From Antedon mediterranea (Eukaryota > Echinodermata > Crinoidea > Comatulida > Antedonidae), in assembly GCF_964355755.1 (NCBI RefSeq), contig NC_092674.1:25012001-25076000 (forward strand): 64,000 nt of DNA, written 5' to 3'. A program made the position numbers and the translations under genes. This document shows, piece by piece, positions 18,388-64,000 of the stretch. Position 1 is the first letter of the stretch. Each line of letters begins with the position of its first letter. The notes beneath the pieces were generated by a model. The model did no database searches, was not told where the DNA came from, and saw nothing but the letters and a program-made list of their open reading frames with translations.

Positions 18388-21131
18388 ATGGACACAACAT
18401 CAGAATCAAATAAAACTCTGTCATCTCAGAATGTTACCTCATCTACCATGGTTGCTATAGAAACATCAATCTTCATTCTTTTGCTAATTTGCATTTTAAC
18501 ACTGAACGCACTCCTGACATACACCCTCTATCGCAAATCTCGCCTCGAAACACCTAGTAACCGTTTCGTCTTCAGTCTGGCTTTGGCTAATGTTGTGTAC
18601 TGTATGTCTTTACCGTTTGACATCATCAGTTTTGTTATGGATGAGTGGTTGTTTGGCGTCATGTGGTGCAATATGACAGGGTTCATATCCATGTGTATTC
18701 TCACAGGAGGTATATTCACTGTGACATGCATCACTATCGATAGGTTTGTAATGTTTATTACTAGCATGCTTTGAAATAAAAAAACCTTTTGAGTATAAGT
18801 ATACCTCAACTCATACCCCAGTCCAACATTTTGCATAGAAATAGCTCCATTTTGTTGTGTTGAATAAAAAACAGAAATCATGTCTTACATACATTAGACT
18901 GTTAATGAGTGTATATTTGCATCCAATGTTTAGCTTATAGTTATACTGTACAGTGAGTCAACTCTGCCTCTGACACCTTTGAGCTGGCGTAATATATCTG
19001 GTTTTCCAGAATTTGGGACCTTTTGAACCCCGAGAAAAGTCTGGTTTTGGGAGAGTCCGGTATTGAAAGAATCAACTGTATTGACATTGGCAAAGCTCAT
19101 AAAATCTTCTTAAATTTCATACCATCATCTTCTAAGCAGCGACACAGATTTTTTACGCAGCTAAATTGTTGTTTGGTTTTAGCTGCTATTAGTAATATAT
19201 GTTAGTCTCATCCTAGGCTACAGTACATGCGCTTTCCTACAGATGATCGTTTAAAAAAAACACCCTGTTGTCGAATTTATTTCAAATGCATGTTTTTACA
19301 TAATTTCAATACAATGTATCTAAACTTGTAGTGTAACATACCAATTATATTTTACTTGAATAAAATATTACCAATAATTATATTCTTGTTTGTAGATATT
19401 ACGCGATTGTGAAACCAATGCTATATCCATTTAAGATAACAAGTAGACGGACAGTAGAACTCATATGTTTTGTTTGGGCTCTTGCCATTTTTATTACCAT
19501 TCCACCATTTTTCGGATGGTCACGTTTTGTCTTCCACAAATCAAAGCTCGGCTGTATGGTCGACTGGCGCCATCATCGTTCTTATGCAGTAGTTTACGGT
19601 ATTATTGGTGCTGTCATGCCGACAATAACAATTATAGTGTGCTATCATCATATTTTTAAAGCTGCTCGTCATTCAAATCGCCGTGTCAGCAATGGTCATA
19701 TTGTCGATACGAACTCACGTTCAAGAAGACGGTCACGTCGTTCGTCGCTCCTTGTTAGTATACGAATGAATTCTCCAACTAAAGCGCTACGGACAGTTTT
19801 AATAACATTAGTTTTAACTTTTATATTTTGGCTGCCATTTATACTTAGTGGTTTAATCGAGATCATGACTTTAGAAATGCCAGCGTTTATCCATCTAATT
19901 GCTATAATTCTTCTTTGTTGCTGGTTTCTTGCGCAACCGTGCATCTACGGTTTGTGGAATCGGACGATTAGAAGAGAGATAAAAGCGATGATTTGCGGTA
20001 CTTCGATATCGTTTGATGGGGATGATGAGCGAGTGTTCTTTCAGAGAAGGCAGTCCAGGGGGGCTAGCATAACAGGAAGTATTACAGATCTTAGTTATAC
20101 TGCGTTACTGCAGTCAAGAGCTGCTGCTGCTGGCGTGACAGTTATAAGTGGAAACAGTGTCCACCAATCAAGTAATGACTCAGGTCTGTATATACCGAAT
20201 AATAATTACTATTTAAAAATAAATGTTAATTTTTTGATAAACCAGTTGCCAAATACCTTCTACGTTACGGCTATTTTCAGTAGCCTTGGTCACGCATGAT
20301 TTTCTGTTAAAAAAGTTAGCGTTTAATTACTTTTAAATATCCATTTTTTTTAGAATAATTATTATCTATATCTATATTACTATGTTTAGATAGTATAATA
20401 AATTAAAGGAACATTTATAATAACTATTCAGCTCTAAATATCTGTACACCACACTCTAGTCTTAGCCCAACTATAATCAGAATACTATATGTATACTGTA
20501 TAATCATATGTTCAGTTCCGCTACTTCTAATGGAGGCTCTTCCTTCCTCCTATCCTACTATTCTTTCTCCAACAATATACCATGGAAAATCTGGAAGGTA
20601 TAACCTCAATAAATATGTTGAATGAACTAATAATACTGTAGTATTATTATTAGTATTTAGTGTAGACTACTTTCATTTTCTAGCATAACAATCGAAACCT
20701 TGATATTCTTAACCATACTGTTTGGGAACTTTATGGTGTCGCACAAACCTAACTTTTACTAGTGTTTATTGGCCATGCAAACATTTAAACAATATCCATA
20801 TACACACATTTTGTTTTGTTTTCACTAATATTTACTGTTACCATTTTCTGTGCGTTCAGGTGCCGTGTTAGCGTGTATACATGAAGCAGCAGACTCTGAT
20901 AAGTCGCTCAGCAACAGTTTAAACCTTAGTACTATCAATAAACCTACAAAACCTACTCATCATACACACAGCACAAACGGCAACGTAGAGTCTGAGAAAA
21001 AGGCATCCAATAAGAGAAGAACTCAAATTGTTCAAAAAGAAACGTGGCGACATCCGCCAAGGTCAAATGGAACAACGGTGGAAGATGAAGGTATCGAGGA
21101 GAATTTTGAAGTGGTAAAACTCGATGATTAA
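18388..21131 (+). CDS. Class A GPCR, GPR161-like orphan receptor (471 aa, three exons)
   Basis: Exons 18388-18743, 19396-20183 and 20860-21131 join in phase. The start is the ATG of MDTTSESNKT, giving an extracellular N-terminus with two N-glycosylation sequons (N8, N15) before TM1 (about 22-44). Seven membrane segments follow, with a C94-C172 disulfide pair and a DRYYAIVKPMLYP motif at 118-130 split by the first intron. TM6 has FIFWLP and TM7 has QPCIYGLWNRTIRRE. Features shared with vertebrate GPR161 are FVFSL-x-L-x-N in TM2 (Asn in place of the usual Asp 2.50), DRYYA with YP-x-KIT, PP-x-FGWS, IYGLWN-x-T-x-R-x-E, and a C-terminal SRxxSIxxxITDL-like stretch. GPR161 is a ciliary, cAMP-raising repressor of Hedgehog signalling. 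Reading through the second donor would give an alternative end at 20299. Orthology is likely but not proven; another GPR161-related receptor is the alternative. Confidence 0.8.
18945..19085. mobile_element. Family I copy 2 in GPCR intron 1
   Basis: Contains GGGACCTTTTGAACCCCGAG, AAAAGTCTGGTTTTGGGAGA and GTCCGGTATTGAAAGAATCA, the inverse of copy 1. Confidence 0.75.
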
Positions 21132-25638: not shown

Positions 25639-28600
25639 TCATACCTGTGTCAAGCTATGCCTACTCCCTCTAGAGTCTTTAGGCAGCATGCTAACTGTGG
25701 AATCAAAGTAAACCTTGTTTGCAGTGGGGTTAGCATGATTTGTGTCCCTATTAACTGCTGGTTGAACATGATCAAATTTACTTGACTTGGGCCTAGCACA
25801 CGATACATCCATATTTTCTGGATGAACGATATCTTTATTAAACTTGCTAGAACGTAGCTTAGACCGAATTATTTCACGGCTTGAAGTTGTGCTGATAGAT
25901 TTCTTGCTCGTCTTCGGTCGAGAACGGCTTACTTCAAGATCAACTAGTTGTTTTTGATTGGTCATTTGAACTAAAGCAGGGTTCATTAAAACCTAATAAA
26001 ATTTAAAAAAAATAGAATTTAAAAGTATAATCATAGAATGTTTAGGTCTTTGTCATTAGTTTATTGACCGTGGGGACACTTGTCAGTTTTAAACAGTACA
26101 ACCACCTCTTTGGTACACCCTATTAAGTGTACACTTCCCCTATGTCAACAGATACTATATGGCATCATCAACTGTGAAATTTACTGGCATACTACCAGCC
26201 CAGTGGTATTGCATCAATTACGTCTCACTGGCATGTGACTTACCAGTCTACAACGACTCATGTGGACGTGAACTTTGTGCACATTAAAAGTCCCTATTAT
26301 ATGATTTAACACTACAGCCAACCAATACACAGGACACACTTATGTAACTTATCTACACTATCAAACTATAGTTTGACTAAAAAGGTGTGATTTGCCTAAA
26401 TATGGTAGTGATGTGCCCAAATATGGTAGTGATATGCCCAAATATGGTAGTGATATGCCCAAATATGGTAGTGAATATGCCCGAATATAATAGTGATATG
26501 ACATCATCATGTCTGTATATAGTATGGGCACATCACATAAAGTTTAATAGTGTAGACTTTTTAGGTCCTAAAAGTGTCCCTTTAATAGAGGTTCTACTTT
26601 ACCTCATCAGAATCGGATGTTTTTTGTGATTCTACAGCAATCTTGTATTCAATACGAAGCGAACTTTCAGAAGGTCCAACTTGATAAGGACTTGTCATGG
26701 CAGTGGACTCCATCTGTGACATCAGCTTCGTTTGATGGCCTACACGTCGCTGGTGAAGGTTGTATAGGACAAAGAACGACACCATTCCTGCTAGAAGTAC
26801 AAATGCCAAGGCCGACAGGATTGTGATTGTAAACGGAGTGAATATCTTTCCATCTGCATTGAAGGTAAGAATATAAAATGATGCTTAGTTTTTACAAAAT
26901 ACATTGGTAAATAAAACTACTAGTGTATCAGTACACTGACAGTATTAGCTGGGCAGATTATTGTACAGTCTCAGGGGTCTGGAAATCAATTTGTGAAAAT
27001 TAGGTGGTGAGATTACATTTGCAATATGTTTTTTAATATGTCAATAGCAAAAAATAGTTACATTGGCTGCCAGCCAATAGGTTTTTGGTTGAATTTAACC
27101 ATTTCTGTTGTCATTTTATAAGTGAAAACATTTTTTTAGTTTTTTTTTTTCTTTGTAAAACTACAAAATGGCCTATTCAAAGTCTGATTTTATTAATCTT
27201 CATTTTTCATGTTTTTGGGGGACAATACAAATTTAGCCTAAAGTATTGGGTGAGTTTATACTTAAATTACAATGTAATGTATTTATCAATTTATCAATGT
27301 ATTTTCTCTCTGAATTTAGTGGGTGGGATTATGGCCCACTGTACTGTTGGTTTGTATCAACAATGGAATTTACCAGTCTTTTTCTCTCTGAATTTTGCCA
27401 AAATTTCAATAATTATTGTTACAATATGGATCTATGAGATAGCAGGCTTTATTATCCAATTTATTCTTGTACTGTAATACCAATTTATTCTTTTGTATAA
27501 TAAGTAGTGAAGGATTTTTATTTCTGCATGGTTGTAAATTCAATACAAATAAAACGTATTCAGGAATTAATGATGCTAACCATATGTCTTTAATAAAAGT
27601 TTAAAAATGGAATATTTTAACAAAAAATCTATTTGTCAGCCAAAAAATTAGGAATATAAATTTATTTTTATTTGAATAAACAACACAAACCATTGTTTTT
27701 TGGCGGACATAGCTCAGTATGAAGAGTAATGTTTTGATTGTAGGCGACAGTCTCCAATTGATCAAATGTGTACGATACCTGAAAAAATTAAGATATATTA
27801 ACTTTTTATGACTTTTTTTATTAGCTTTTTTCTTATATTTTTTTTCTAAATTGATGATCAGATGTTAGATAATTTGCCATTGTCAGCACACAAGGAGACA
27901 ATCTCCTGTTCACACACAAAACAGTAATTTCTTATCGTGCATACATGCAATGTATAGTAAACACCTTACTATTCCGAGTGTTAAAAACAGAACGATACAA
28001 ACGTAGCCTCATCCCCTACCTCCTAAATATTTTAATAACCAGGTTATAATGCAACTTACTACAATCCATAATCGCGGTGCTATATTATTCATAGTCAAAA
28101 CAGTTCCAAACTTTTGTTCCAATAATTGTATTTTTTTATTGTACTATATATATTATAAATTGTAATTGTAATATTTGTTAAATTGTATTATGTTTATCTA
28201 ATTTTTGCTATTTTTATACACAGGACCAACATCTTCATATCCCATCCATAGGATTTGTAAGCAATGTGGCACCACAGGTCTTGAACCCATGCCTCATGCA
28301 TGGTAGTTCAATAGTCCATATCATACTGCTGTCAATACCATTAGTGCCTTTTGGTAAAAATATTAACCCTGAACATTAATGCTATATACTGCATGGTCCC
28401 TTTAATAATCCCTTTTTTATAGTAAAATGAATGGTTAATGCCTAAGAGCAGTATGAATAAATAATGCCCTTTGACCTATCACCTTGAAAAATCAGTGGAT
28501 ATTAACAGTTCATTTAAAGACTTAATCCTCTTAATATGTGGTAATGAGGATTATGTGATTTATGCTAATCCTAGTTAATAACTCCTACAAGGGACGCCTA

Positions 28601-38122: not shown

Positions 38123-41100
38123 ATGTCTGAACCATCTAGTTATGCACAATGTATAACATTACCTCCTGATCAAGTTTTTAGAAATTTAAAGAATGCAAAA
38201 CGATTTGCTATCGATATTGGTAAGTTTGCAACTAGCCTTGTCTAGTTAGGCTAGCCTCTAAGGCCTAGGCCTAGGCTAAGCTTGGGCTACCTAGGCCTAG
38301 TAGGCTAGGCCAGGCCTAGCTACTACTACTAGCTAGAGGCTAGGCCTAGCTGGTCCGTTTGTTTCAGCTTGTTGTGCCCGCGCCAGCAGCCAGGTCTTGA
38401 AGTTCTGCTGACTGCCTGAGCCTAGACTAGACCTAGCCTACCAGTCAGTCAGTAATTGTCTCTATATCCTTCATTTAAACTTGCATTAATAATAATAATG
38501 TTAATGTTGTTGGTGTGTATTGTGTTTTAGTTTATTTTAATTTATTCCATAAATAAATTACAATTAAACATATTGTTTTAGTTATTTTATTTATACTATC
38601 CTATAGTTATACAGTCCTAGCTAGTAGGCCTAGGCTAGTTATAGTTTTAAGGATTAAAATTTAAGTTCTATTGATCAATCAGTACGTGTATTTAAAATTG
38701 ATATATGAACTTTAAATGTCCAATTTGAATAACTTTGAATCCACTGTTCGATATTATATCTAAAATTTATAATAACTTTATATATTAAACAAATATTTTG
38801 TCCATACCCAGGTGGATCATTATGCAAATTAGCATACTATTCAACATTGCCTACCAAACAAAGCCATTGCTCGGAAGCCAAAGAGCAGTGTAAAGATGGA
38901 AAAGAAAGTCCTCCTTTATATGAAGTTGGGGAAAAGGAAGAAATCTCAACACGCCTTCATTTCATCAAATTTGAAACCAAATACATCGAAAGTTGCCTTG
39001 ATTTTGTTAAGCAGAACTTGATAGAGAATGAGGAACAGATGAATGGGAAGATTGTAAAGGCAACGGGTGGTGGAGCTTATAAGTATAAAGAACTATTATC
39101 GGAGAAACTAGCAGTAACGTAAGTTTACAAACCGATAGTTACGTAATGACTAAACCTAGTAGGGGACTTATGCACTTGTCAATTGTATGACCCACTATAC
39201 GATCCCCGGGAGAGGTGCGTCATGGGTGCGTCATTTACAAATAATTACTGACGCAGGGGTGCGTCAAAAAACCTAGATGGTACGTCGCATCAATGAACAA
39301 GGTGTGTCAATATCCGTCACTTTACCACCCACCATATCATAAACAACATGGTCACAGTGCGTCAAAATGGGTGCGTCATGGTCACCTAAAGGTAAGTCAC
39401 ATTTTTGACGCACCGGTGCGTCATGGTATTCAAAGGTATGACGCACATCGGACAAATGACGCACCTCTCCCGGGGGTCGTATAGTGGGTCATACAATTGA
39501 CAAGTGCATTACTGTGGCCCATAAGCAGTGCCCAGAGGGAAAAACAGGCATTAAAATATGCCGAAAAGGCTGGCTATTTGTGCATATCAGTACCATATTT
39601 AGACACATCACATTTTTTTGTCAAACTAGTTTGATAGTGTAGACAGAGTGTTTGTTTAGAACTTATATGGGTTTTTTTATCAAACACGTATTGAAACATA
39701 GTCCCATAATGCAGCTAGTAATCAGAAGTGGTGTCTTGATCTAACCGGGTACCCATTTTATACACCTGGGTGGAGAGAGGCAAATTTAAGTAAAGTGTCT
39801 TCCTAAAGCTCTGTCTACACTATCAAACTAGTTATATATGGTAGTGATATGCTCAAATATAATAGGGATGACATCATCATCTCCATATATGGGCACATCA
39901 CATGTTTTTGTCACATAAAGTTTGATTGTGTAGACAAGGCTTAAGGATAGAGTGACGATGATGTATACTTTTAATTTCTATAGGATTGAAAAAGAAGACG
40001 AGATGGATTGCTTGATAAAAGGATTACATTTTCTCCTGAGGAATATCCCAGATGAAGCGTTCATCTTTCAACGACATGCCAATCAAAAATACCAATTCCA
40101 ACCCTCGGACCAAAACATATTCCCTTACCTACTGGTAAACATTGGTTCTGGTGTTAGCATTGTCAAAGTGGAATCGGAGACACAGTACGAGAGGATTGGT
40201 GGTTCAGCAATGGGTGGTGGCACCTTCTGGGGGCTTGGTTCGCTACTAACAAAAGCCAAGGTTTGTTTTTCGAGATTTTTTTGAGTATTTAAAAAAAAAT
40301 TTTATTTCCAAACCCAACTAACAGCAAAAAAAATTCGCCAATAGCAGGTAGGTAATATTTATGTTATAAAGTTTGCGCTACACGCTGTATGTAATTCTAA
40401 CATGAAGTCTCTACCGCAAACTTTATGTCAGCATACTATATTGATTGTTGCTATGTCCTTGGTAAATGCTAACACTACTTTCTTCCTAAGAGGAGGTATT
40501 TTTTAAGTAGTTTATAGAAAAAAGGACAAAAATACATAGCTCCATGTTAGCTGTTACAGTTTTGATAATAATTTATAATACGTATCATTGCTATTCTTGA
40601 TTAGGGTTTTGATGAGTTGTTGAAACTTGCCATGGCCGGTGATCATCGTAATGTGGACATGCTGGTGAAAGACATCTATGGTGGTGCATATTCCGCTATG
40701 GGGTTACCTGAAGATCTCTTGGCATGCCACTTTGGTAGAACAGTCAAGCATTCTATGGACGACCAATCAAATTCAGGTATCAAGTTTTATTCATTTGCTT
40801 TAATTGCTTTCAAAAAAATTGTAATTTGGCCAACCCTATCATCTTGAAAACTAAATCATTTTTTAACTTGCCCCAGTTAGTCCAAATAAGTGACTGACAC
40901 AACATCTGTATTATTTTTTAAGGTACATTATACAGTTATACTGTATATAGTTACTATATTATATACAGTATAATATCATTATTTCTAAAAATCATTATGT
41001 AGGAGATTTCTGAAAAGGAAGTTGTTTGTCTTTAAAGAGTGGAGTTGTGGCTTGGTGTTTATGATGCTTGGCTACCAATCCAAGTGTCCTGGGTTCATTC

Positions 41101-44100
41101 AAGTCCTGTCAATTTTTCTATTGACAAATTGACAACTTCACTCCTAAAGACTTGTAATAAGACTTTGTTTATGTAGAGCATCGTGTGTATATGTTTGTCT
41201 TTTTTTGAAAATTCAAATAAATTATATTTTTAGAAAATGAAGAGTACGCTCCAGAAGACATTGCCAAGAGTCTTCTTTTGATGATAAGTAACGGTATCGG
41301 ACAGATGACGTGTCTCTACGCTAATCTAGAAAATATGAAGCGTGTATATTTTGGAGGGTATTTTATTCGTGGTCACCCAGTCATAATGGCGGCCATTACG
41401 TTTGCTTTAAATTATTTCTCAAAGGTGAGTTGAATGCCCAATTATGGTAGTGATATTCCCAAATATGGCAGTGATATTCCCAAATATGGTAGTGATATTC
41501 CCAAATATGGCAGTGATATTCCCAAATATGGTAGTGATATTCCCAAATATGGTAGTGATATTCCCAAATATGGTAGTGATATTCCCAAATATGGTAGTGA
41601 TATTCCCAAATATCGTAGTGATATTCCCAAATATGGTAGTGATATTCCCAAATATTGTAGTGATATTCCCAAATATGATAGTGTTATGACAACATCATCA
41701 TGTACATATATTGGCACATCACATTTTTGTTGTCACAAAATGTTTCACAGTGTAGACAGAGCTTAATATACAATGACATTTGTTTTGCTCTGAGACAATA
41801 CAAAGCCTCAACAAAATATAAGGTCACATCATTCCTGTATATTCAGTGCTGTAATATCAGCTGAATAGAAACTGTTGTGGAACCAGTAGAAGAGATTAGG
41901 GACTTTATGAAACAGGACGGTTAGGAGAGGTTGATGAATATCCTGTGTTTGCTACAGCGTAAAATCATAAACAGTCCAAATAGCCGTTTTATTAGTTATG
42001 CCCCTTGCGCGAAGATGACGACCAGCATTATCTCTCTATGCATGAGCACCGTCCTGTGGCATTCCGTCCTGTTTCGTAAAGTCCCTAATGGGCCAGTAAC
42101 GTCTACCGCTATGTACTGTACAACCTTAAAAACATAGTGTAGGGAATGGGTCTTGACAAAATGAAGATACTGTAGTCTACATGTACATATACCACGTATA
42201 TTAGTTCTGAAAAGAACTGTTGAGTTTCTCTACGTTTCGATCAAAATGCTTAGACCGTTGTCAGGAGTGAGAATGCCAACCTTTAAACAATATACATGTC
42301 CATAAGTACATAATTATTCACACATATAGAATTTAAATATAAAAATTCAAATCTTGTGTATTGATTAAGTGTTTATTGTAATATTTTTTTCAATGTTTTA
42401 TTATTTCTTTAAAGGGAGAAGTTCAGGCCTTATATTTAAGACATGAGGGTTATCTTGGTGCTATCGGTGCTTTTCTTAAAGGTGCAGAGGAAGATGGTAA
42501 GGAACAGAGTGATTGAAAACAGTTTATAAAACAGTTGCTATCAAATTTTTAAAATAAAGCCATTTATTTCTTTATATCGCATAGAGGTAGTTTTGCAAAA
42601 AAATATTGTGCAGTAATATTTACTTTCTTCCTTATAACTGTATCTGAATGTGTAATAGCACCTAACCAGGCATTCTCTGACCACAAAATGTTGCATTCGG
42701 GGCCAGTTTTATTGACGTTACCTACCTTACCTAACCTCTTCAGACCCATAAGGCTGCAGTGGAAATTTTCCAGTTGGTTTGCTTCGTTCCATGTCCTCCA
42801 TCCAAGGTATTCTCTCTCCCCTTCCACTGTTCTCCTACCTTCTGGTTTCCATATCATAGCTGTCTTAATGATGTATTGCTGTAAAATTGAAAATTCAAAT
42901 ATATATATATTTTTATTTGTACAGATACAGACAAATACCAATGGGGCGAGAATTTTGCTGGTAGCTCTGGATTTAGTAGTCCAACTCCTTACGTTGATTT
43001 TTCTGAAACGGGTATCTCTAGCTCAGTGAGTAGTTATCTTTTTCCACAATTTACAGATACATGTTCTCGATGTTGTTGAATATGCCTAATTCTTGCACTG
43101 AAAATCCTATAGCTATATTTCAATTAATTACTGTGAAAAAGTGTACACGAAATTTTCAAAAGCCGGCGATCTGTACTGAGCTGTCTTAATATCGAGTAAA
43201 CTAAAATTTCATTTTTCAAAACTTCATTTTTAGCATGAGGCAAGAGTTATAATTTAATAATAATGCGATGCTCCCACAGCATTTACTGTATTTGTTTTTT
43301 TGTACACTATTTAATTTGTAATTTTTAATTTAAATTTTTTTTTTAGTTTGATTTGTTTGAGATGAATAGATTAGACAGAGTTTATGTGCCTTGTCCTAGA
43401 CTCAAATGTCCAGTCTCTTATGTAGCTGATTTAGTAGACTTGACGAATGATTCTGATGCACGCGATTATTGGTTGAAATGCTTTGAAGAAGCCTTGACAC
43501 GGGTAAGTGATGCAATCACTTCTTAGCATCTACAGTACGTACTCAAATGTATGTATTGAGAAACATACAGATTTATAATTTATTCATAATTAGTTTTCAT
43601 TTTAGCAAATGGCTATTATTACAGTGGAACCTTAATCCAGCCATAACATAGGCAAGGGTTTGAGGCTCTCTCGCTCTCTTGCTCCATTATAGTTCTTGTG
43701 GTAGAGTCTTCTCAGATATGGACTATAAATCGCAGGTAGAGTGTACACATATTGCTAGTGTGCACTTTAAAAAACCTAGTACATCTTTCGAGACGAGTAG
43801 GGGGTTACTTCGGTGTAATAGTTCACACTTGGCCACTTTGTTGAGGACAAATGAGATACCGCTTTATAGTGGCTGCACAGACATGATGTGAACCGTAGGG
43901 GAGAAACATGGTGTTGAAAAGTGTAACATCCAAGTCCAAAGCGCATAGAGACTATTTGTATTATGCGCTATACAAATTTAAAGCCATTAACCATTATCTG
44001 TATCTTCAATATGGGCCTAAATATTTACAGCACGCTTTCAATCACTTTCTTAATTTCTGAATACTTAATGTATATTTAGGTTGGAGACTATGCAGTGAAA

Positions 44101-47100
44101 AGTCAGTCGTCAACACAGGATGCAATGAATAGAGCTGAACAATTTAAAGAAAAATATAGAAAAAGACTAAGAATACTACAAGACCAGCCTTTGTAAGTAC
44201 TGTATTACAAAAATAAATATTGTTTTGTTGATTTTCTCAACTAAAGAACACTGTTAACGATGAATTGTCCCCCAAAAACATAAAAAATGAAGATTAATCA
44301 AATCAGACTTTGAATTGGCCATTTTGTAGTTTTAACAAAGTTAATCACTTCCATAGAAAAAAAAACCTGAACAAATAATATTTTCATTTATAAAATGACA
44401 AACTAAATGATTAAATTCAACCAAAACCTTATTGGCTGGCAGCCAATTTGACTATGTTTTGCTTTAAATTACAGTTTTTTCAGGTAAATAAAATTTTGTT
44501 TAAGATCCAATTTTTGGTCAAAGTGGATTATATCATAGAAATAATATCTCTATGATTATACTGTGACGTTAAAATGGCATATTCAACAACAAAAATTTAA
44601 AAAAGTAATTTTTCAGGGGGACAATATATCTATATTTTTAGGTTAAATTTTGTTCTTAGTCTAAATTGAATACTCCTAGCTTATGTTTAGTCTCAATTGA
44701 TAGTTTATCTTAATTATTGAAATAAGTATGTGTAATTGTTTTTGTTTTTTTTGTTATAGTGCATTCGGCTCATTAACCGTTAGAAGTTTACTAGAGACAC
44801 GAGAGCAATGTCTGTATGAGTTTAGTTTTCCTGATCCATATTGCCATGTGAGTAAAGATGCCAAAAAATATGCATGTATGGAATCGAAAAAAATAAACAA
44901 ACCAACTTTACACAAATATATGAATGTTTATGAGTTGGATGGTTAGAATATTTCATTCCGTTTTTAATGAGGTGGAGCCAAGTTATGAACACAAAACATT
45001 CATTATTTGTTTTATAACTCACCTACTTTTATTAAATTTATCCATTCAAAATAGCAGTTCTGTAACTTTTTTTTTATTACTATAGCTGAAACGAGAAGAA
45101 AATGAAGCAGCATTAAAATTTTTACCGAGTCGGTTAAATCAGCTGGATTCAATGGCTTGGCTTGGACGACAAATGGCATTGATAGAGGGCGTTCTGGCTG
45201 GTAATGTGTTTGATTGGGGTTCTAAAGCAGTCACTACGTAAGAAAAACTTCTCAAATGTTTACAAATTTTGTTTGCAATTACAGGTACTGTATTGTTTAA
45301 TAGCTTAAAATATTTTTATTTTTCCTTTGCAGACTTTTAGAAAAGGGTAATTTTGGTTTTATGGAGGCTAAGTCTAGCCTCCAACCCAGACCTTGGTTGG
45401 TGGATAACTTGGATGCATGGTTAGAGAGGCTAAAGGTTAGAAATTACTTTTACCTATTTTATGACAGACCAATTTTCCCCAATTTTTTTATATGGAAGAT
45501 AATATTCCTATAATTCATAATGTAGTTTCCACTACTTGTTGTTAACCCGGACAACAAATATGTTTTTCCATTTGACATGTCCAGTTGTCTACATCTCTGT
45601 CTACACTATCAAACTTTATGTGACAAAAAAAATTTGATTTGCCCATATATGGACACGATGATATATCAAATCAAATGTAAATCAACCAATCAAATTTCAT
45701 TTGTACCTTGTTGCATAAATGACAATAAATACTATCGTATCGTACCATCTTTAAGAACATCACACTTTTTTTGTCAAACTAGTCTGATAGTGTAAATTGA
45801 GCTGGATTGTTTAGTTTGATAGTATAGTTTCAATTTTTATAGCGACCTCTCTTGTTTGGTAATATGCTTTTATTGGGACATCTGTTATCACCTTTAACGC
45901 TAATAAATTTTTATTTAATTTTATGTCAATGATTGTGTTCTTTATTCCACAGGGTCCACCTCATAAACGAGTTGTTATATTTGTAGATAACAGTGGTGCT
46001 GACATTATTTTAGGCATATTCCCACTCGTCAGAGAATTCTTAAAGCGAGGAACACAGGTAATACATAGTATTCATTTTTTGTTATTAAAATAATACCGTA
46101 TATCCTCGGGTATAATCCGACCCACTACTTTTTATATAATTTCACAAACATGCATATCCCCCGGTATAAACCCAGTATTGACGTTTGAACTGGATGTAGG
46201 CCTCTCTCTAGCCAATTCAGATGATTTTTTACAAGAAATGCTTACCAATCCTTTTTTTTTTTCTGAACCAGGGTTTCCCCGGGTGTAGTTCACTCCCCCC
46301 TCCCCCCGTAAAGTCGGCCAAAGTTCGTTTTTTAGGAGAGCGAGATTATGCCAGAGGATATACAGTAATTGTTTTTCCCTGACATACATATTATAATAAA
46401 ATATTTTCTTTTTTTCTATTTTAAGGTGATCCTTTCAGCCAATTCAAAGCCTGCCCTCAATGACATTACCCATAATGAATTAGTTATTATTGTGGAGCGT
46501 ATTATTACAATGGACGAGACAATAAAGACCGCCCTCTATGAGAAGCAACTGCAGTTGATTCAAAATGGTAGTGGTTCACCATGTTTAGATTTGAGGTAAA
46601 TAAAAAATAAAATTGTTGAGCCAGATTGTTGTATTCTGAGGTTGAATAGGACTGTCAGGCTTTCAATATTACTCTACATACAGTAATCTTTCATTCAACG
46701 AACACAGAACAATTATTAGTTTTTTAACACGTTCACTGCCACGGCGTATTTATACGTCAAAAATTGCGTGTTGCTACTTGCCAAGACGTAATACTACGTC
46801 AAAATCGTAGCACTTTTGTATTGTATGTAGAATCGCTGGCAGTGGTTATTGGAACAGGAATTATCGCATGGCAGTTTATGAATGATGTACGTAAACGATA
46901 ATCTAAAAATAAATGTCATATGTTTGTTTGTGTTTATTCCCTCATGCATTGAATATGGTTGATACGATGGCGCCCTCACACTCAATATAATCATCTCAAA
47001 CATGTCATAAATTGCGCTAATAGTAAATAAAAATAATAAATAGTAAATAATATAAGTAATATATATATAGTAAGTAATATAATTAGTATTTATACGTCTC

Positions 47101-47934
47101 AACGGTTTTTCCCGCCATCGTATTTTGAATGACATCATGATAGTCTGTGACCAGATGTTACACTTTCAAACTGCAATTTAATATGTAAACGGGACTTGGC
47201 ACTGGGACAGAAATTACGGAAAATGCCTTGGCAGTCAATGTGTTAACACACTGTTCTAGAGTAAACTTTTATTCAATTAATCCAATGCTCTATCAATGTC
47301 AAAAGCTAAACCTAGTCAAAAGACAGCGCTCAGATTTTGGATGTGGAGTTTAACAACAGTTATAGAAGATGTACGTACAGTTAGGTTGAAATTAAATCGC
47401 GGAAACAAGCCTTCCTCCCTACCTAATTTGTATATTCGTAATTTAAATCTAAAAAATGTTTACAAAAAGCTGAGTGTGCAGTGATATCGTCAATCATTGA
47501 AATGGGAGAAATTAATGCCAACCAATCAAATGCAAAGGATGCACTTTGGTGTGTTGTAATAATTATTATTAGTTTATTTAATATTTAATTAGTCAAACAA
47601 CATCATAATAGTTGAGTAGAAAAGTAACTTTACTTTAAAAGGTATCTAATATATTAAAACAATTTTCTATTTAATTAAAATTTATTTGTTTTTCTTACCA
47701 AATAACTTGTTAACTTTTTATTTCTTTTCTTTCAGTCGCATTGATCAAACAATAGCATCCTGCTGTAACGAGGCCGACCTTATTATTTTGGAGGGAATGG
47801 GACGTGCGATTCACACGAATTACAGTGCACGCTTCTCGTGCGAAAGCCTGAAACTCGCCGTGCTGAAAAACAAGTGGTTAGCAGAACGTTTTGGAGGCGG
47901 CATGTTCAGTATTGTTGTCAAATATGAAATGTAG
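38123..47934 (+). CDS. PANK4: PANK4: pantothenate kinase fold fused to DUF89 phosphatase (770 aa, 15 exons)
   Basis: Exons: 38123-38219, 38812-39118, 39984-40260, 40605-40776, 41234-41424, 42415-42496, 42925-43025, 43347-43502, 44080-44192, 44760-44847, 45086-45237, 45333-45435, 45953-46057, 46426-46595, 47736-47934. They give 771 codons with stop, against 773 residues in human PANK4. The start [21 protein letters not shown] matches the PANK4 N-terminus. The N-half has the ASKHA nucleotide-binding motifs (AIDIGGS at 29-35, [12 protein letters not shown] at about 186-197, GGGTFWGLG). The C-half is a DUF89 metal-dependent phosphatase reported to act on 4'-phosphopantetheine and its damaged forms, limiting CoA synthesis. 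DUF89 ligands D625, N626 and D661 ([19 protein letters not shown]) are present. Unlike human PANK4, the kinase residues Glu and Arg are kept (E141, R205). The protein should be cytosolic. Introns hold many MITEs and SINEs. Confidence 0.96.
38230..38360 (+). repeat. AGGCCTAG-rich low-complexity tract in PANK4 intron 1
   Basis: Dense GGCCTAGG and GCTAGGC words run just downstream of the first splice donor. A similar but sparser cluster is near 38625. Confidence 0.8.
39171..39508. mobile_element. Harbinger-like foldback MITE (family D) in PANK4 intron 2
   Basis: Roughly 50-bp terminal inverted repeats begin TGCACTTGTCAATTGTATGA and end with the inverse. TTA lies on each side as a possible 3-bp target duplication, as in PIF/Harbinger elements. 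The interior repeats GTGCGTCA or its inverse many times. Confidence 0.85.
39571..39650. mobile_element. MITE family A, truncated copy
   Basis: Only the right half is present, ending AGTTTGATAGTGTAGACAGA. Confidence 0.8.
39665..39800 (-). mobile_element. SINE family S1, partial minus-strand copy in PANK4 intron 2
   Basis: CATAATGCAGCTAGTAATCA and CCTGGGTGGAGAGAGGCAAA. The head is missing at the border of a family-A MITE. Confidence 0.83.
39806..39942. mobile_element. MITE family A copy
   Basis: Both ends are clear (AAGCTCTGTCTACACTATCA and TTTGATTGTGTAGACAAGGC). It inserted directly beside a truncated minus-strand SINE in PANK4 intron 2. Confidence 0.88.
41036..41205 (+). mobile_element. SINE family S3, copy 2, PANK4 intron 4
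   Basis: GTTGTGGCTTGGTGTTTATG, CTGGGTTCATTCAAGTCC (B box split by a short insertion) and AAGACTTTGTTTATGTAGAG. Confidence 0.83.
41434..41765. mobile_element. MITE family A copy with a 21-bp array of about 12 units
   Basis: The left TIR is gone. The array of CCAAATATGGTAGTGATATT-type units begins about 10 bp after the PANK4 exon-5 donor (41425) and runs to about 41680. A normal right half follows, ending CACAGTGTAGACAGAGCTT. Units are multiples of three, so several frames stay open; these are not genes. Confidence 0.88.
41898..42092. mobile_element. Short inverted-repeat element (family F) in PANK4 intron
   Basis: Ends ATTAGGGACTTTATGAAACA and TGTTTCGTAAAGTCCCTAAT are inverse to each other, each next to CAGGACGG or its inverse CCGTCCTG. 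Confidence 0.8.
42195..42270 (-). repeat. Possible Penelope-like element remnant, PANK4 intron 5
   Basis: The minus strand reads CTCCTGACAACGGTCTAAGC then GATCGAAACGTAGAGAAACT. The pairing of CCTGAnnA with CGAAACGT is characteristic of Penelope-like termini. There is one copy only and no reverse transcriptase nearby, so this is tentative. Confidence 0.4.
43630..43990 (+). mobile_element. SINE family S2 copy, PANK4 intron 8
   Basis: GTACATCTTTCGAGACGAGT, AGGGGGTTACTTCGGTGT, and a tail ATTATGCGCTATACAAATTT. Confidence 0.83.
44258..44632. mobile_element. MITE family B copy in PANK4 intron
   Basis: Starts GATGAATTGTCCCCCAAAAA and ends CAGGGGGACAATATATC, with TTATTGGCTGGCAGCCAATT inside. It lies between exons 9 and 10. 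Confidence 0.87.
45592..45802. mobile_element. MITE family A copy with extra internal sequence
   Basis: TIRs are ATCTCTGTCTACACTATCAA and CTGATAGTGTAAATTGAGC. The middle holds additional AATCAA-rich sequence (about 45660-45740). It lies in the PANK4 intron after 45435. Confidence 0.82.
46094..46367. mobile_element. Inverted-repeat element family G, copy 1
   Basis: TACCGTATATCCTCGGGTAT at the left and GCCAGAGGATATACAGTA at the right. Inside, TAGGCCTCTCTCTAGCCAAT matches the inverse of copy 2. Confidence 0.83.
46728..47242. mobile_element. piggyBac-like non-autonomous element (family E)
   Basis: TTAA is present at both borders (46724-46727 and 47243-47246). The ends are CACGTTCACTGCCACGGCGT and, inverted, CACATTGACTGCCAAGGC. 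TTAA duplication with a CACxTTxACTGCC-type end is typical of piggyBac relatives. It lies in PANK4 intron 14. No transposase is seen. Confidence 0.8.
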
Positions 47935-50309: not shown

Positions 50310-53300
50310 ATGGTATGTTTAAAAAGGAACTCTGAGACTAATAGCTGGACTTTGTATTGGATATTTAAACAGATCTTTATGATGTTTTTAGTCGTGACGC
50401 TGATGATATTTCGTACTGTCAATACTCAGCTGGTCCAGTCAACATTACCACCACCCGGTAAGATAATTGATTTTGTCCCTTGCCACGGTAGATGGATGGC
50501 TGTCTATAGCCTAATAATATTGTGATTTTCTGTCAGCATTTATAATGTGTACGGTAAGCTTTACATAAAATAATATTATTATTATTAATTATCATGTACT
50601 GGTGGTGTATGTAGTTTAGTAGAGTCAAGCAGCTGACTGGTGGTGAATAGGTAGGAGAAAGACTTGCTTGTCAAACTTAATTTTATCGAAATGTGTGGTT
50701 TTGGAGTGACCTTGACATAGGTAGGCCTAGATGATAACGAGGTTGATGAGAGTGTGTGTTGACAAAGCTATTCACTTTCATTTTTCTTGGAAGGTTTTCA
50801 TTGTCTTTTGATATTTTAATTGGTGAACATGTGTATTTTAATACAGTGTGCTTAACTAACATTAACAAAACTAACAATACATTGACAGGATGCATGCTGC
50901 TGAATGGGGAAGCCAAGAATGATGATGGAATCCACAAATAGAGCGAGGAGGTTGAAGAAAACAAGCAAAGAGTATTGCAATACTCCATGTACTTTATTGA
51001 CTATCCCAAACAACAGATCATCCAAAAAATGTATTCATGCTCTTCCCTGTTTTTTCTTCCGAGTGGATGCTCGCAGAATCTTTGCCTGAAGTCCCGTGGC
51101 AAGCACAAATTTACATTTTATTTATTCGGGAAACCTAATAAAGATCCCAAAAAAGGGTTCTTCTGTCTTTTTGACTAGTGTAAGGTGAAAAAAATTGTAA
51201 CCAAGTGCACTAAACAATTGGGTGGACAACCCCATTTAAAAAAATTTAAGTCACCTTCTGACTTTTGATACTATTTTGCCAAAGTTATTGTCAACTTGTG
51301 TGATGCAAAAATTGCCTTTACTTTCATCAATTTAATTTTTAATTTCCTTTTTCAGTCACCAGGTGCTTTCAAATTAGTTCTGTAGTGCCCGCGGCTTATT
51401 AACATTTTTTTAATACGGTTAAAAAATGTATCAATAATATCGTTTTCTCATCTTCTTTAAAAGTCCTGGTCTTTTGCAATTGGAAGCCATTTTAAAACCA
51501 GGTATATATTATTATTACTGCCTTTCCGCTGAAAAGTCTGCCGACATTTCCGCTTGGGCTGCTCCGTAAATCTCTTTTACTAGTTTCTTCCAGTCTGATC
51601 TTTCTTTGGCTAGTTCTTTAAGTTGTTTCATGTCTTTCTTGGTTTTCAATTGTCCGGGATACTTAATGTCTGTATTATGCTTATAAAGGGTGAGTAGGTC
51701 GTTGCTGAGAGTTATTGGTAGGGTGGTTCTCTCGGCCTTCCTCGAAATTTTATATTGGTAGTGTTGCTGAAATAATAGCCTATTGCTGTGTTAGCTGGTG
51801 TACATGGGTCTTGTCTAAGTATGTGACCCAATAGTCTCCATCTTGCGTCGACTATTTCTAATGAAATCGGTTTTGTTCCTGTCCTTCTGTATAAATTTAT
51901 GTTCGATATCCTGTCTGGGAACCTGATACCTATGATTTTGCGAAGTTGCTGTCTGTGAAATGTGTCGAGTTTATGTGCTTCTTCTTTTGTGAGTCCCCAT
52001 GTTTCAGAGTTGTAGAGTAATATACTTTTAACTAGTGAGTTGTACAGCTTGATACGTATTTTTAATTTGATTTTATCTTTTCGAAGCCACATCAAGTTTA
52101 GTTTGGTCATTGCTACACGCGCTAGTTGTTTTCTTCTAATTATGTCTTGTCTGTCCCCAAGGAGCGATCCTACTTTTTTCGTGTTTCTCCATTGTTCTTG
52201 TATGTCCTCTTTTTCTCGTCTTACGATAGTGTGTTCTGTTTTTTCTTTATTTACATTTAAGTTGAAAGTTGATAAATGGCGTTCTAATTCGTTTACATTA
52301 TGCTTGCTGTTTAGACTAAAAAAATCTACATCATCAGCATATGATATCTCTTGAGGTATTTCTGTTTGGATAATTGTTCTGATTCCTCGTAGCGCAGACT
52401 CAAGGTAAACAGTGAATAAGACCGGGCTTAAGCTATCTCCTTGAGGGGTGCCGATGTTGGTTTGGAATATTGGCTGTTCTTTTGCACCTTTTATTTTTAG
52501 ATTTAGTCCGGTTTCACTCAGCAGAAATCTAACGATCCTAAGTTCATCTTCGTCTATAATATGTTTGAGTATGTCGAGGAGTTTGTTTCTATCCACGGTG
52601 TCAAACGCGCTTGACATATCTATACCGGTTATGTAAATATTTATTTTTTCTTTTTGTGCTTTCTATAAGCCATCAATGTGTAAAAACAATATCACTTGTG
52701 CTTCTGCCTTTGCGAAACCCACTTTGGCTTTGTGGTAAGAATGCGTCTACTTTCGATGTAATTCTATCCAGTGTTATAAGCGATAGGCACTTGCGTATGG
52801 TGTTAAGTAGAATAACAGGTCGTAAATTCTTAGTTGGACCCTTTTCCTTACCCGGTTTTGGTAGTGCTATGAGTGTTCCTTTATTAATATCCACGAATTC
52901 ATGTTTTGTAAATATTTGATTTAAAATGTCTGAAATCATTGGAGCTACAGTAGAACAGTGGAACCGTATTTTAGTACCGGTAGTTCTCCTGGGATACCAT
53001 CCAATCCTCACCTGTTGCTCGACTGTTGTTTAGGCGTTTAAGACTCTTGGTATATGTATAGAGTATTACACCTCTCAGTCGGTCATTGTACTAGAATATT
53101 TAACTTGGTACAAGAGAGTATTCATTTATTTGTTTTATTTGTTTAATAGGAGACATATTGTTTATTTAACCTGTTTACATTAGTTATTAAAGTGAACAAT
53201 TGCAAATACCAAGAGTATCTGTTGTTATGCAGCTAACCAGAAGAACAGTTTATTCACAATTACACGATTTCCGTGCTAAAACATCTTAGCTTTGTCCACA

Positions 53301-56300
53301 CTATCAAACTAGTTTGACAAACAATGTGTGATGTGCCCAAATATGGCAGTTATACGGCCAAATATGGTAGTGATATGACATCATCATGTCCATGAACACA
53401 TCAATGCATTTTTTGTCACATAAAGTTTGATAGTGTAGACAGAGAAATGATGACTCCATATCATTATTGTAGTATCTGTATTTGCATCTGGAATACATGT
53501 TATTTTAAAAATCGTAAAGCCCAAACGAGAGACCTGTCGTCGATGATAAAAAATTGTAACTTGAAAATCTTCTTTGAAGATTTACCCACATCACATATCT
53601 TTCATCAGTATGGACTTGTCATGAGAACGTCAAGATCCATTTTCGATGGGAACGTGTGGGAATATCAGTATATCCATTTTCAATGGGAACGTGTGGGGAT
53701 ATCAGTATATCCATTTTCAATGGAAACGTGTGGGGATATCAGTATCCATTTTCAATGGAAACGTGTGGGGATATCAGTATCCATTTTCAATGGGAACGTG
53801 TGGGGATATCAGTATATCCATTTTCAATGGGAACGTGTGGGGATATCAGTATATCCATTTTCAATGGGAACGTGTGGGGATATCAGTATATCCATTTTCA
53901 ATGGGAACGTGTGGGGATATCAGTATATCCATTTTCTATAAGCAACAACAAAATAAATTTGAACTAGGTGTTCTTTCCCAAAAGTAAAATAGCATACAAT
54001 TTATTTGGTGTTGAATGTTGTAAGACTGAGTGAGTGAGTGGCCGAGCGGTTAAGACAGTGGAACCGTAATTACGTAGCCATAACATTGGCAGGGGTTCAG
54101 TGTACACATCTAGCTCGTGTGCACTTTAAAGAACCTAGTACATCTTTCGAGACGAGTAGGGGGTTACCCCGGTGTATTAGTACATCACAGCCACTGATCA
54201 CCTCTGGGAGACCAGTCTTTGACTGAAGAGGTTACCCAGTATAAATATAAATTTCAATCAATTCAATCAAGACTGTTAAAACTTGTTAAATTGTGTTTGA
54301 TGTTTTCATCTGTGTCTATTATAATTGCTATGTACAGTATATTGCTAAATGCAAATCATACTGTAGACATGTTTTTATTATTCTGAAACATTTTTTTGCA
54401 AACTTTTGGTTTTGCCATTTAAATATGTTTGTAAAATATGTGCCAGCGGCTGTTTGTGTAGTTATACTGTATGTGATTTTTAAAAAAAACATTTATTGTG
54501 TGATTAAAATACTTTGTAAATTGATATAACACTTGTAAATCAAAATACTATAGGCCTAATACTTTTGCTTCAAATAATTCCAACATATTTCTAGTTTATT
54601 TTTGTAAAAATACTCACCTGCGTTTCAAATCTATGTTAAACCTCTTTGGATTTTGTTGGTTTTGAGAACTTGGATTGACCCTTTGTAACCTGATTATTTG
54701 TATGGGAAGTTGAATTCCTCATCAATCATTTTAAATGTGTATTTTGTCATAACAAACAAGTGTTTTTCATGGAATTAGTCCAGTATTAATTTAAACATTG
54801 TTACATTGCAACTTATTGGAATGTATGGTACTGTCTTACTATGTAAATGTAAGGGAACAACCTGAACAAACTTTGAATACACCATTTTGTAGTTTTTTCA
54901 TGGAATTAGTCCAGTATTAATTTAAACATTGTTACATTGCAACTTATTGGAATGTACGGTACTGTCTTACTATGTAAATGTAAGGGAACAACCTGAACAA
55001 ACTATGAATAGACCATTTTGTAGTTTTAATAAAACTATTCACTTTTTGGAAAACAAAATTGAATAAAAATAATGATTTTGTTTAATATTTTTATACCAAG
55101 AATTCAACAAAACGGGCAAAAATTGCCGCACACTAGGCCAGAGTTTAGCTGGTATGAAAAGGGCACTTCATGCACAGAAAAAATTCATTTCATTCCCAGG
55201 CTACTGTAAGTGCTTGTTAAGCCACAAACAAATAAAAGCTGTAATAATACCCACAGTACAGTACAGTTGATTTTTAATTTCTTTTTTATAATGTACAGTA
55301 TCTTGTAAAAATATAAATGGCCTTCATTAATATAGATTAGACTAATAAAGTAATAGACTATTACTCAGTGTACTAAACTTTTAACTGCATAGTTTATGTC
55401 ATATGTAATGTTCTCATATAACATGATATACCTGTAGGCCTATCTCATCATTTAAATGTAATGTATACATTCTGTAGATAAAAAAAGGTTTATGGCCTAT
55501 AATGATGTGAACACTATAATATTTACATCTTGAAGTGTTGTAAATAAGCAACCCATAACATTGTCATCTCAGATTTATGGTAGCTGATTTTATATATACC
55601 AGTAGGGAAAAAGAATCAGCCTACCAAAAAAATTGACTAATAATACTGTATATCCTCTGGTATAATTCCACCCCCTAGAAAACGAAATTGGGCCGACTTT
55701 GCGGGGTGAGACTATACCCAGGAAATCCCTGGTTCAAGAAAAAAATAATTGGTTTAATTTCATTTCTTGTAAAACTTATTTGAACTGGCTAGAGAGAGGC
55801 CTAAATCCAGACCAAATGTCAATACTGAGACTATACCTGGAGATATGCATGTTTGTGAAATCAGACATAAAGTATAGGTGGGATTAGACCTGAGGATGGT
55901 ATGTACTGTATCTGAACAAATAGTACTTAATAGATAGAAGTTTTTCCCCTAAAAAAAAAAATTATTTTCTGTTGAATATATTTTAATGTCATATAATAGT
56001 ATTCACTTTGACCAAAAATGTTTGGTCAGACAATAGTTTTTGGTTAAAATTAACTTTAAATAAGTGAAATAATTTTTTTTTTTTTTACAGAAGTGAATAG
56101 CGTAATTAAAAAACTGCAAAATTGTCTATTAAAGTCTGATTTCTTTAATCTTCAATTTTTATGTTTTTGAGGGACAATACATCTTTAAAGTCTGATTGTA
56201 TTAATCTTTATTTTTCATCTTTTGTTGGACAATACATCTTTAAAGTCTGATTTTATTAATCTTCATTTTTTATTTTTTTGGGGAACAATACATCTTTAAA

Positions 56301-59300: not shown

Positions 59301-62300
59301 CTGAATAGGAGTTAGCTGTAGTGTGAAAACATATGTTGCCCCTTGTTTGTCGCACAGAAAAATGTTGGCCAAATAGAAGTCTCCTGAATAATAGTGTCCT
59401 AAAGAAGGGATAAGTCTCCTGTAATCAAATAATTGTATTTATAGTCGTTGTCATGGTATATCTCTAATATGGTTTTGCCATGGGTATGAAATATATATAA
59501 AATTTGTACTAAGTTCTCCAATTTTAATTATAAAAAATTACAAACTTAGGCAACACTTGATCATAAATACAAAATGTCAGTTGTATATATTTTTATTAAA
59601 AAGCATTTTTTTTTGTAGATCCAATTAGGCTATCCGATGGGTCAACAGCTTTGGACGGTAGAGTAGAGGTGTTTATGAATGGCCACTGGGGAACCATATG
59701 CAATAGAAACTGGGATATTAACGATTCGTATGTGGTATGTCGAATGTTAGGCGGGTACTCGGCCAATGAACATATACAAAGGGTTAAGCCTGGCAAAGGC
59801 ACTGTACAGTTAGACAATGTGAATTGCACTGGAACGGAAGCGTCGATTGAGCAATGTGAGAAAGCTTCCGGGAGTAGTGTGGACGTACGCTGTCGGGATC
59901 ATAGTAGGGATGTAGGTGTCAATTGTACAAGTGAGTACTATATAGGACAATGTGAAACCAAAACAAGTACAGTACAATAAAACTGAGTGATTTTAAAACT
60001 AAACATCGTCATACAGAATGTTTTTATCTACAGTAAACAATAATTAACATAATTATGGTTTATATGCAAAATTGTTTTATATTAAAAGATAAGGAATATT
60101 ATGGGGTTTTTTTTCAAAAATATGTTACCGAAAAAGGAAAATATATTGTAGGAAAGTCCATTAAATTTCATTATTTATTTATTTATTCAAGATCCAACAG
60201 TGTAAAACACCAAAACAGGATCGCCATAAAATATACATTTGATTTACATAAAAAAGAACAAGGAACAAACAGATTTATATATTATTAAAAATGACATTAA
60301 AAGCAGAAGTATTACAACTAAAAATATTGATGTAAGGAAACATTTGAACTAATCTATTATAAAATGGGCAACCCGACAAAAAATACCGTTTTTAAGAAAG
60401 TTTGTAGGCCCACTCCCACAAATATCCTTTTAAGATTACAAATTGCATTATGAGATGTTTTGATCGAAAACTTTGAACAAAAAAACATTTGTTTTATCAG
60501 TTAAATGATTTGTTTTTGGACTAATTTTTGGTGAAAGTTAATAACTATTATGATACTACAAAATGACCCACTTTTTTCAAAAAGGACAATACATCTTTAA
60601 CACTCAGGGCTCATTTATATGATATTGATTATAATAAGGGGTGCTGTGGTTTAAATTTAAATGTAGTGACAGGGTTGAAAAAGATTCCGTAGAAATAAAT
60701 TAATTTATGATTTTAGAATATATACGATTAGTAAATGGAAGCCACCCACTAGAAGGCAGATTGGAAGTGTTATACAATAACCAATGGGGTACTGTCTGCG
60801 ATGACCAATTCTCTGCCAGCGATGCTGAAGTTGTTTGTCGCCATCTTGGTAACTACATTACCAGCTCGTTGAACGCGTATTCATGCTGTGCATTGTTTGG
60901 CAAGGGCGTAGGGCCGATACTTCTCAGCGGCTTGACATGTACTGGACAAGAACGACGAGTTGAAGACTGCATTTTCCAAGGAAATGATCCGGTTTGTCAA
61001 CACAACCGAGACGTTAGCATTCACTGCTCAGGTATTACACTATCCAAATTTAGTTGGTTTTTTAAAGTTGAATAATTAAATTAGTAACTTGGTTTTATTG
61101 TTATACATACAGAAACATAAGACAATGTGTAGAATGACTTTTACACCCAATAGCTGTGTCGTCAAGTGGCATGTTGTGAAAACATATGGTCGCTTTTATA
61201 AAACCAAACAACCATTAAAGTTGCCTCTCCGGTATATTTATGCTCCGTTTAATCTTGGTAACCTTTCAAGTAAAAATATTGGTATTATGGTTAGAGTTTA
61301 CTTAAAATCAAATTAGAACAGTACTTTTATTTTTTATTTTTTAATTACAGTATGTATTGGCTATAACGGTTTCTTCTATTAATTGAATGGGTATCCGAAG
61401 GAACTAATAATTCCGTCTAGTACAGCCCTGCCAAAAACAGATATTTTAAAAACTTGATTATCAAACTTTTAATATACTACTATTTTAGATATACGGTTGG
61501 TTGAAGATCAGGATAGCCTTCAAGGCAAACTTGAATTTATCGAAAATCTTCAATGGGGTGAGATCTGTGCTGATGACTGGGATATCAATGACGCCAATGT
61601 AGCATGTAGGCAGTTATTTAACACGAGTGCGCTCTCTGTATACGTGAGAGACACTCGGTCAAGCAGACAGCCTTTGTTTGGTGGCTTTAATTGCAATGGA
61701 ACTGAATCTAGGCTATCCGATTGCCCACGGTCATCGTATGTCAGATGTACAGGTCAACACCTGGCTGGTATAAAATGTGATGGTAAGATACAAATGTCTT
61801 AGAGCTGCTCTGACCATAATATATACATATCTGATGAGCATCTTTGTAACTCTGTCCCACCTTCGCCAATCTGTGTCTGCATATAGATCTATTGAAGTTT
61901 AAAATGTGGCGTCCTAAAACATGAACCGCTGTTATGCAGTATTGCCTTTACTTTGTAAACGTACATGTGGGAGAATAACCTGCAGCCTCAATGCGCTGAA
62001 TTGCACACATTTGTGTAAATCACGACAACAGGAGCTGAGATAGACCAGTACACCGGGGTAACCCCCTGAAAGGTGCACTGTGTTCTTTAAAGTACACACA
62101 AGCCAGATGTGTACAGTTTCCTTATCCGAGAAGACTTGTTCTACCACCAGAACCACGGCTGAGGAGAGCCTTGCTTTTATGGCTATGGTTTCCAGCTCAC
62201 TTCCCTGAACTCGTTTACTTTGATGATTATTAAAAAATATATCTTCATCATCATTTACTTTCTGTTTCTTTTTTACCAGCCGTGATCAAAATTCGTCTAC

Positions 62301-63718: not shown

Positions 63719-64000
63719 GTAAGGTATGACAGACAGGGAACATTTGATTTTACGACAACTAAATTCTTAAAAAAATTCAGACATCAGTACAGTAATTTTA
63801 TACTAAATTAAACATTTCATTAGTTTCGTTTTGTTTTAATGTGTTGCATCATGGAGGAAAAAATATTTTTTTTCCTCCATGGTTGCATCAAACATGCATC
63901 CACATTCCTGAGTGTGTGCTGAAAAATGTTCTGCTTGGCCCTCATGAAAAAAGAAAAGAAGGTCTACCACTCTGTGTTTTGAAGGAAGATTTTTCATGTT

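Follow-up and report, generated by a model that had tools for sequence, protein, structure and literature searches.

PANK4 of the crinoid Antedon mediterranea keeps the catalytic glutamate and arginine of pantothenate kinases on one polypeptide with a DUF89 domain

The window analyzed here, a stretch of 64,000 nucleotides from the Antedon mediterranea genome (contig NC_092674.1, positions 25,012,001 to 25,076,000 of the forward strand), carries a complete gene for PANK4, in which a kinase half with both catalytic residues, E141 and R205, is joined to a DUF89 half with its metal ligands in place. Under the preferred reading, to which a probability of about 0.6 is assigned, this non-vertebrate PANK4 orthologue would represent the ancestral state, combining a working type II pantothenate kinase with a DUF89 phosphatase whose main substrate is 4'-phosphopantetheine. 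By phosphorylating pantothenate, the N-terminal half would carry out the entry step of the CoA pathway, and the metal-dependent C-terminal half would remove phosphate, mainly from 4'-phosphopantetheine, and so drain the third intermediate. The kinase would drive the pathway one way and the phosphatase the other way, at two different steps, and a separate PANK1-3-type kinase is encoded at another locus of the genome. We infer both activities, the substrate preference, and the physiological role from homologues.

Gene model and surroundings of PANK4

The PANK4 gene spans positions 38123-47934 on the + strand and runs from ATG to TAG in 15 coding exons for 770 amino acids (Table 1). In the spliced model, all 14 introns are of the GT-AG type and the frame continues without a break to the stop at 47934; exon 3 occupies exactly 39984-40260, with AG before and GT after it. 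GGSLCK and ATGGGAYKY in exon 2 are conserved motifs of the nucleotide site. Pfam matches were obtained for PF03630 Fumble at residues 27-370 (443.2 bits, profile positions 1-334 of 334) and for PF01937 ARMT1-like (DUF89) at residues 453-761 (174.3 bits). The kinase domain and the C-terminal DUF89 domain are thus on one polypeptide, joined in frame by continuous splicing in the model. The architecture of Fumble plus ARMT1-like is that of PANK4, and with 443 and 174 bits for the two domains the gene is real beyond chance.

Table 1. Positions of PANK4 exons, catalytic codons, and example repeat pairs in the 64,000-nucleotide window
Feature	Positions	Strand	Content
PANK4 exon 1	38123-38219	+	Start codon, first part of the phosphate-1 motif DIGG
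PANK4 exon 2	38812-39118	+	GGSLCK and ATGGGAYKY conserved motifs
PANK4 exon 3	39984-40260	+	D140, E141, S193 (= PANK3 S195), R205, GGGT loop
PANK4 E141 codon	40000-40002	+	Catalytic Glu, equivalent to PANK3 Glu138
PANK4 R205 codon	40192-40194	+	Substrate-binding Arg, equivalent to PANK3 Arg207
PANK4 exon 4	40605-40776	+	Y252, Y256, A267 = opposite-protomer Tyr254, Tyr258, Ala269
PANK4 exon 5	41234-41424	+	Kinase half; F346 vs PANK3 Trp341, C311 vs PANK3 Arg306
PANK4 exon 6	42415-42496	+	End of kinase half
PANK4 exon 7	42925-43025	+	Linker, ends at S409 (T406-equivalent region), without AKT motif
PANK4 exon 8	43347-43502	+	Linker and start of DUF89
PANK4 exon 9	44080-44192	+	DUF89
PANK4 exon 10	44760-44847	+	DUF89
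PANK4 exon 11	45086-45237	+	DUF89
PANK4 exon 12	45333-45435	+	DUF89
PANK4 exon 13	45953-46057	+	DUF89 metal ligands D625 (45986-45988) and N626
PANK4 exon 14	46426-46595	+	DUF89 metal ligand D661 (46462-46464)
PANK4 exon 15	47736-47934	+	End of DUF89, stop
17-mer GTCTACACTATCAAACT, example pairs	39813-39829 and 39919-39935; 53294-53310 and 53424-53440; 62804-62820 and 62902-62918		

Several other features were observed in the window. A frame with a partial HECT ubiquitin-ligase domain (53 bits) lies at 9784-10137 (+), and two frames of a rhodopsin-family GPCR (Pfam 7tm_1, 64 and 86 bits) at 18382-20299 (+). The region 59600-63729 (+) has SRCR domains in three frames, at 59600, 60704, and 63391, as well as a similar fourth frame at 62234-62608, and is probably a scavenger-receptor gene. 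On the - strand, a retroelement reverse-transcriptase frame (Pfam RVT_1, 60 bits) was found at 51712-52662, and the neighboring frame at 52673-53029 resembles the upstream part of this element.

The 17-mer GTCTACACTATCAAACT occurs in the window in 17 copies with up to 2 mismatches, compared to 0.02 expected from shuffles. At five sites, PANK4 introns included, a + copy is followed by a - copy within 200 bases, and the 17-mer resembles the termini of a family of MITE-type repeats. Two tandem arrays consist of closely similar 21-base units, one with about 5 copies at 26387-26500, flanked by inverted copies of the 17-mer (at 26351 and 26541), and the other with about 12 copies at 41437-41687 in PANK4 intron 5.

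Catalytic residues of the two halves

In the HMMER alignment with PDB 5kpr and in a MAFFT alignment, E141 fell on PANK3 Glu138 and R205 on PANK3 Arg207, as the preliminary description of this DNA had proposed; the numbering of 5kpr was verified (chain Glu = 138, chain Arg = 207). The MAFFT rows were the PANK4 kinase half, PANK3, PANK2, CAB1, and the genome's own PANK1-3-like protein, and together with 9 bacterial kinases Glu and Arg were present in 14/14 rows. PANK2 and PANK3 share both residues at the Glu138 and Arg207 columns. Human PANK4 has Val and Trp at these positions, in agreement with the earlier claim, according to the available text of PMC8861153, PMC10529755, and PMC11022721; this amniote-type state was not encountered in Antedon PANK4, with Glu and Arg at both columns.

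The remainder of the site was compared with the PANK3 residues involved in binding pantothenate or in bracing the site, which are given in the accessible part of PMC8366970 as D137, E138, S195, R207, Y254', Y258', V268', and A269'. Seven of the eight are identical in PANK4, that is, besides the Glu and Arg, 5/6 of D137, S195, Y254, Y258, V268, and A269. The exception is V268, a column occupied by Leu in PANK4, Ile in CAB1, and Thr in the bacterial kinases. PANK4 scored 354.3 bits with the NCBIfam equivalog TIGR00555 (panK_eukar; cut-off, 247.6) and stayed below the cut-off of the bacterial NCBIfam model NF009842 (131.8 bits versus 234).

In the phosphatase half, D625, N626, and D661 aligned with the Asp, Asn, and Asp of At2g17340 (1xfi), which bears out the earlier statement that the DUF89 metal ligands are intact. 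D625 and D661 correspond, at an offset of two residues, to human Asp623 and Asp659; human PANK4 lost its phosphatase activity when these were mutated, according to the available part of PMC9352595. In the same source, human PANK4 shows a clear preference for 4'-phosphopantetheine, its activity on 4'-phosphopantothenate, which is what the kinase makes, being considerably lower. The preliminary description had proposed a bifunctional kinase-phosphatase that makes and dephosphorylates 4'-phospho intermediates of CoA synthesis. Its residue basis stood, with both sets intact, and an active bifunctional enzyme is the likeliest reading; the pairing of the two reactions is qualified by the reported preference of the human phosphatase for 4'-phosphopantetheine over what the kinase makes.

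Conservation of the kinase half and competing readings

Of the 85 columns without variation among the other four eukaryotic rows, the PANK4 kinase departs at 19. By the same rule, CAB1, an active yeast pantothenate kinase, differs at 21/87 columns, and the PANK4 kinase half is therefore not more eroded than CAB1. PANK3 (2/68), PANK2 (8/74), and the genome's own PANK1-3-like protein (10/76) depart far less, as is to be expected of three rows so close to one another, and the departures of the latter two are mostly gaps of partial rows. The PANK2 row lacks the N-terminus, which leaves the first nucleotide loop outside the 85 columns; in PANK4, the Asp, two Gly, and Lys of this loop are all present. 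The changes at columns constant in the four comparison enzymes include W341F, S270C, S271H, N300G, A305T, D257A, and S212A, which are candidates that could weaken the PANK4 kinase.

At the PANK4 retention rate of 66/85, the probability of keeping both Glu and Arg is 0.60, and that of keeping all six invariant site columns is 0.21. The retention of E141 and R205 alone is statistically unremarkable, and its use as strong evidence by itself was rejected on the value of 0.60. Given both values, selection for kinase chemistry is not demonstrated by the sequence, which is consistent with an active kinase and cannot prove one; an active kinase is nevertheless likely.

The kinase half might instead have kept both residues while already being weak, persisting chiefly as a scaffold, regulatory or structural, of the phosphatase, with the amniote loss completing the process. 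Frog PANK4 reportedly has both residues and weak kinase activity, and Glu and Arg are therefore no guarantee of a strong enzyme. Six of the substitutions listed above (W341F, S270C, S271H, N300G, A305T, and D257A), each at a column where the other four eukaryotic rows agree, would fit an attenuated kinase, as would the fly PANK4 orthologue, which in the available text of PMC13276073 is without any kinase domain and still a CoA brake. Against attenuation, the share of departures resembles that of CAB1 (19/85 versus 21/87), and PANK4 has kept each of the six published site residues whose columns do not vary among the other four rows. On this balance, attenuation is considered possible, if somewhat improbable.

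A first half that phosphorylates pantetheine or another pantoyl compound instead of pantothenate is very unlikely. S270C, S271H, and W341F lie in or adjoin the opposite-protomer part of the site, and Trp341' and Arg306', which according to the accessible part of PMC13181797 contact the larger synthetic ligand pantazine across the PANK3 dimer interface, are Phe and Cys in PANK4. Pantothenate itself is described there as having no interaction with that interface. A changed substrate is opposed by the 7/8 published pantothenate-site residues kept in PANK4 and by the absence of Arg306 from CAB1 as well. A pseudogene or a mis-spliced model, with pieces belonging to no single expressed protein, was rejected as extremely improbable: the window exons are missing from the list of a genome-wide PF01937 search, which short exons can escape, but the model has 14 GT-AG introns, a frame unbroken over 15 exons, and both domains nearly full-length.

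Ancestry, regulation, and known systems

In the maximum likelihood tree of the 14 rows, PANK2, PANK3, and the genome's own PANK1-3-like protein formed one group (support, 99/96) and the bacterial kinases another (100/100), with the PANK4 kinase and CAB1 outside both; the order of PANK4, CAB1, and PANK1-3 is left undecided by this tree, for which the program warned of long branches. The identity of PANK4 as a PANK1-3 paralogue was rejected on the basis of its position outside the 99/96 clade. By parsimony, Glu and Arg would be the state ancestral to PANK4, because each of the three sampled eukaryotic lines has them, as does the bacterial outgroup, which comprised 9 confirmed of 22 pattern matches, all from Bacillaceae and found with PANK4's own kinase peptides. 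The check proposed earlier, whether the two residues trace as ancestral on a PANK4 tree, was covered by this parsimony argument, with the Antedon row representing PANK4.

The kinase-half query of the bacterial and archaeal collection returned no PANK4, the 9 confirmed relatives serving as the outgroup, and that of the viral collection gave 15 pattern matches with 0 confirmed relatives. No PANK4 was present among the 15 PDB sequences listed with E up to 0.001. In the Antedon genome, at least one further kinase locus was found, encoding the PANK1-3-like protein (L001, G000:C4:25922500-25931500), a lower bound since only the best candidates were scored in the search. This protein keeps Glu and Arg, with DELNC compared to DELDC in PANK3. 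Vertebrates have three PANK1-3 paralogues according to the available text of PMC13276073, and a single further locus therefore agrees with a non-vertebrate animal. Elsewhere in the genome, a single 1124-amino-acid open frame, apparently intronless, with three phosphagen-kinase domains was observed (G000:C9:6113010-6115877, - strand); such a frame, together with the SRCR exons, is suggestive of an echinoderm. A COX1 search gave no match, nor did one for the mollusc haemocyanin family, in which the control was silent as well.

PANK4 is reportedly active in plants and fungi, and the ancestral fusion is likewise said to have been active. The inactivation of the PANK4 kinase domain by evolutionary mutations was assigned to amniotes in the accessible part of PMC9352595, and, as far as its text was available, PMC10529755 attributes both Glu138Val and Arg207Trp to all amniote PANK4s, citing Yao et al. 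2019; PMC10529755 also places the kinase-DUF89 fusion in plants, animals, and chytrid fungi. The derived loss of the kinase is thus already in print and dated to amniotes, and Antedon PANK4 fits that view. Kinase loss as a vertebrate-side event, as first suggested, holds in that the loss is derived and Glu and Arg are ancestral by parsimony, but its published placement is narrower. Within the literature library covered, a search for PANK4 in invertebrates or echinoderms matched only papers on inherited CoA disorders and salivary-gland proteomics.

The motif RxRxx[S/T] was found nowhere in the 770 amino acids of PANK4, nor with Lys in place of either Arg. The linker stretch before FDLFEM reads SETGISSS, to which human Thr406 presumably corresponds. 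The AKT motif at Thr406 of human PANK4 is described as conserved across vertebrates in the available part of PMC9352595, and the fly orthologue as lacking the mammalian phosphorylation sites in that of PMC13276073. This suggests, as the natural reading, that the AKT switch may be younger than the PANK4 enzyme, which one invertebrate sequence is insufficient to settle. More tentatively, and on balance rather unlikely in its full form, a bifunctional non-vertebrate PANK4 would have controlled CoA flux without insulin-AKT, vertebrates would have gained the AKT switch in the linker, and amniotes would then have lost the kinase, resulting in a change from a constitutive two-way enzyme to a purely hormone-controlled brake. 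The order, with the switch first and the kinase loss later, would follow from a motif reported vertebrate-wide and a catalytic loss reported amniote-wide in the accessible text of PMC9352595.

Since the main evolutionary claim has been published, the general importance of the gene is modest. It adds one more non-amniote case of a protein that combines a complete kinase site with an intact phosphatase, with a PANK1-3-type gene also in the genome, and the missing AKT motif is a small addition to the known picture, suggesting that the AKT site was not part of the ancestral animal PANK4. Antedon PANK4 would also be suitable material for finding out whether the two opposed halves of such a CoA enzyme operate simultaneously.

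Among the known systems, At2g17340 (PDB 1xfi) aligns to PANK4 residues 449-768 and has Asp, Asn, and Asp at the matching positions, and its solved chain of 367 residues matches only the phosphatase half. CAB1 (PDB 6uj5) is identical at 139/319 positions (43.6%), the highest of the four eukaryotic rows, with E and R present, and the matched chain covers only the kinase half. PANK1-3 (PDB 5kpr, 5e26, and 2i7n) and the Antedon gene on C4 belong to the same kinase family, with Glu and Arg in PANK2, PANK3, and the Antedon protein; these three are 36-41% identical to the PANK4 kinase half, which lies outside their clade, and the solved chains align only to that half. Drosophila CG5828 (dPANK4) is described in the available text of PMC13276073 as a DUF89 phosphatase and CoA brake without a kinase domain, whereas the kinase domain of Antedon PANK4 is complete. 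Human and amniote PANK4 share with it the two-domain order and the DUF89 aspartates, offset by two residues, and differ, as far as the sources extend, in having Val and Trp for Glu and Arg and, for vertebrates generally, a conserved AKT motif at Thr406. The plant, fungal, and non-amniote animal PANK4 proteins are alike in the kinase-DUF89 fusion itself, a likeness drawn from the description in the accessible part of PMC10529755.
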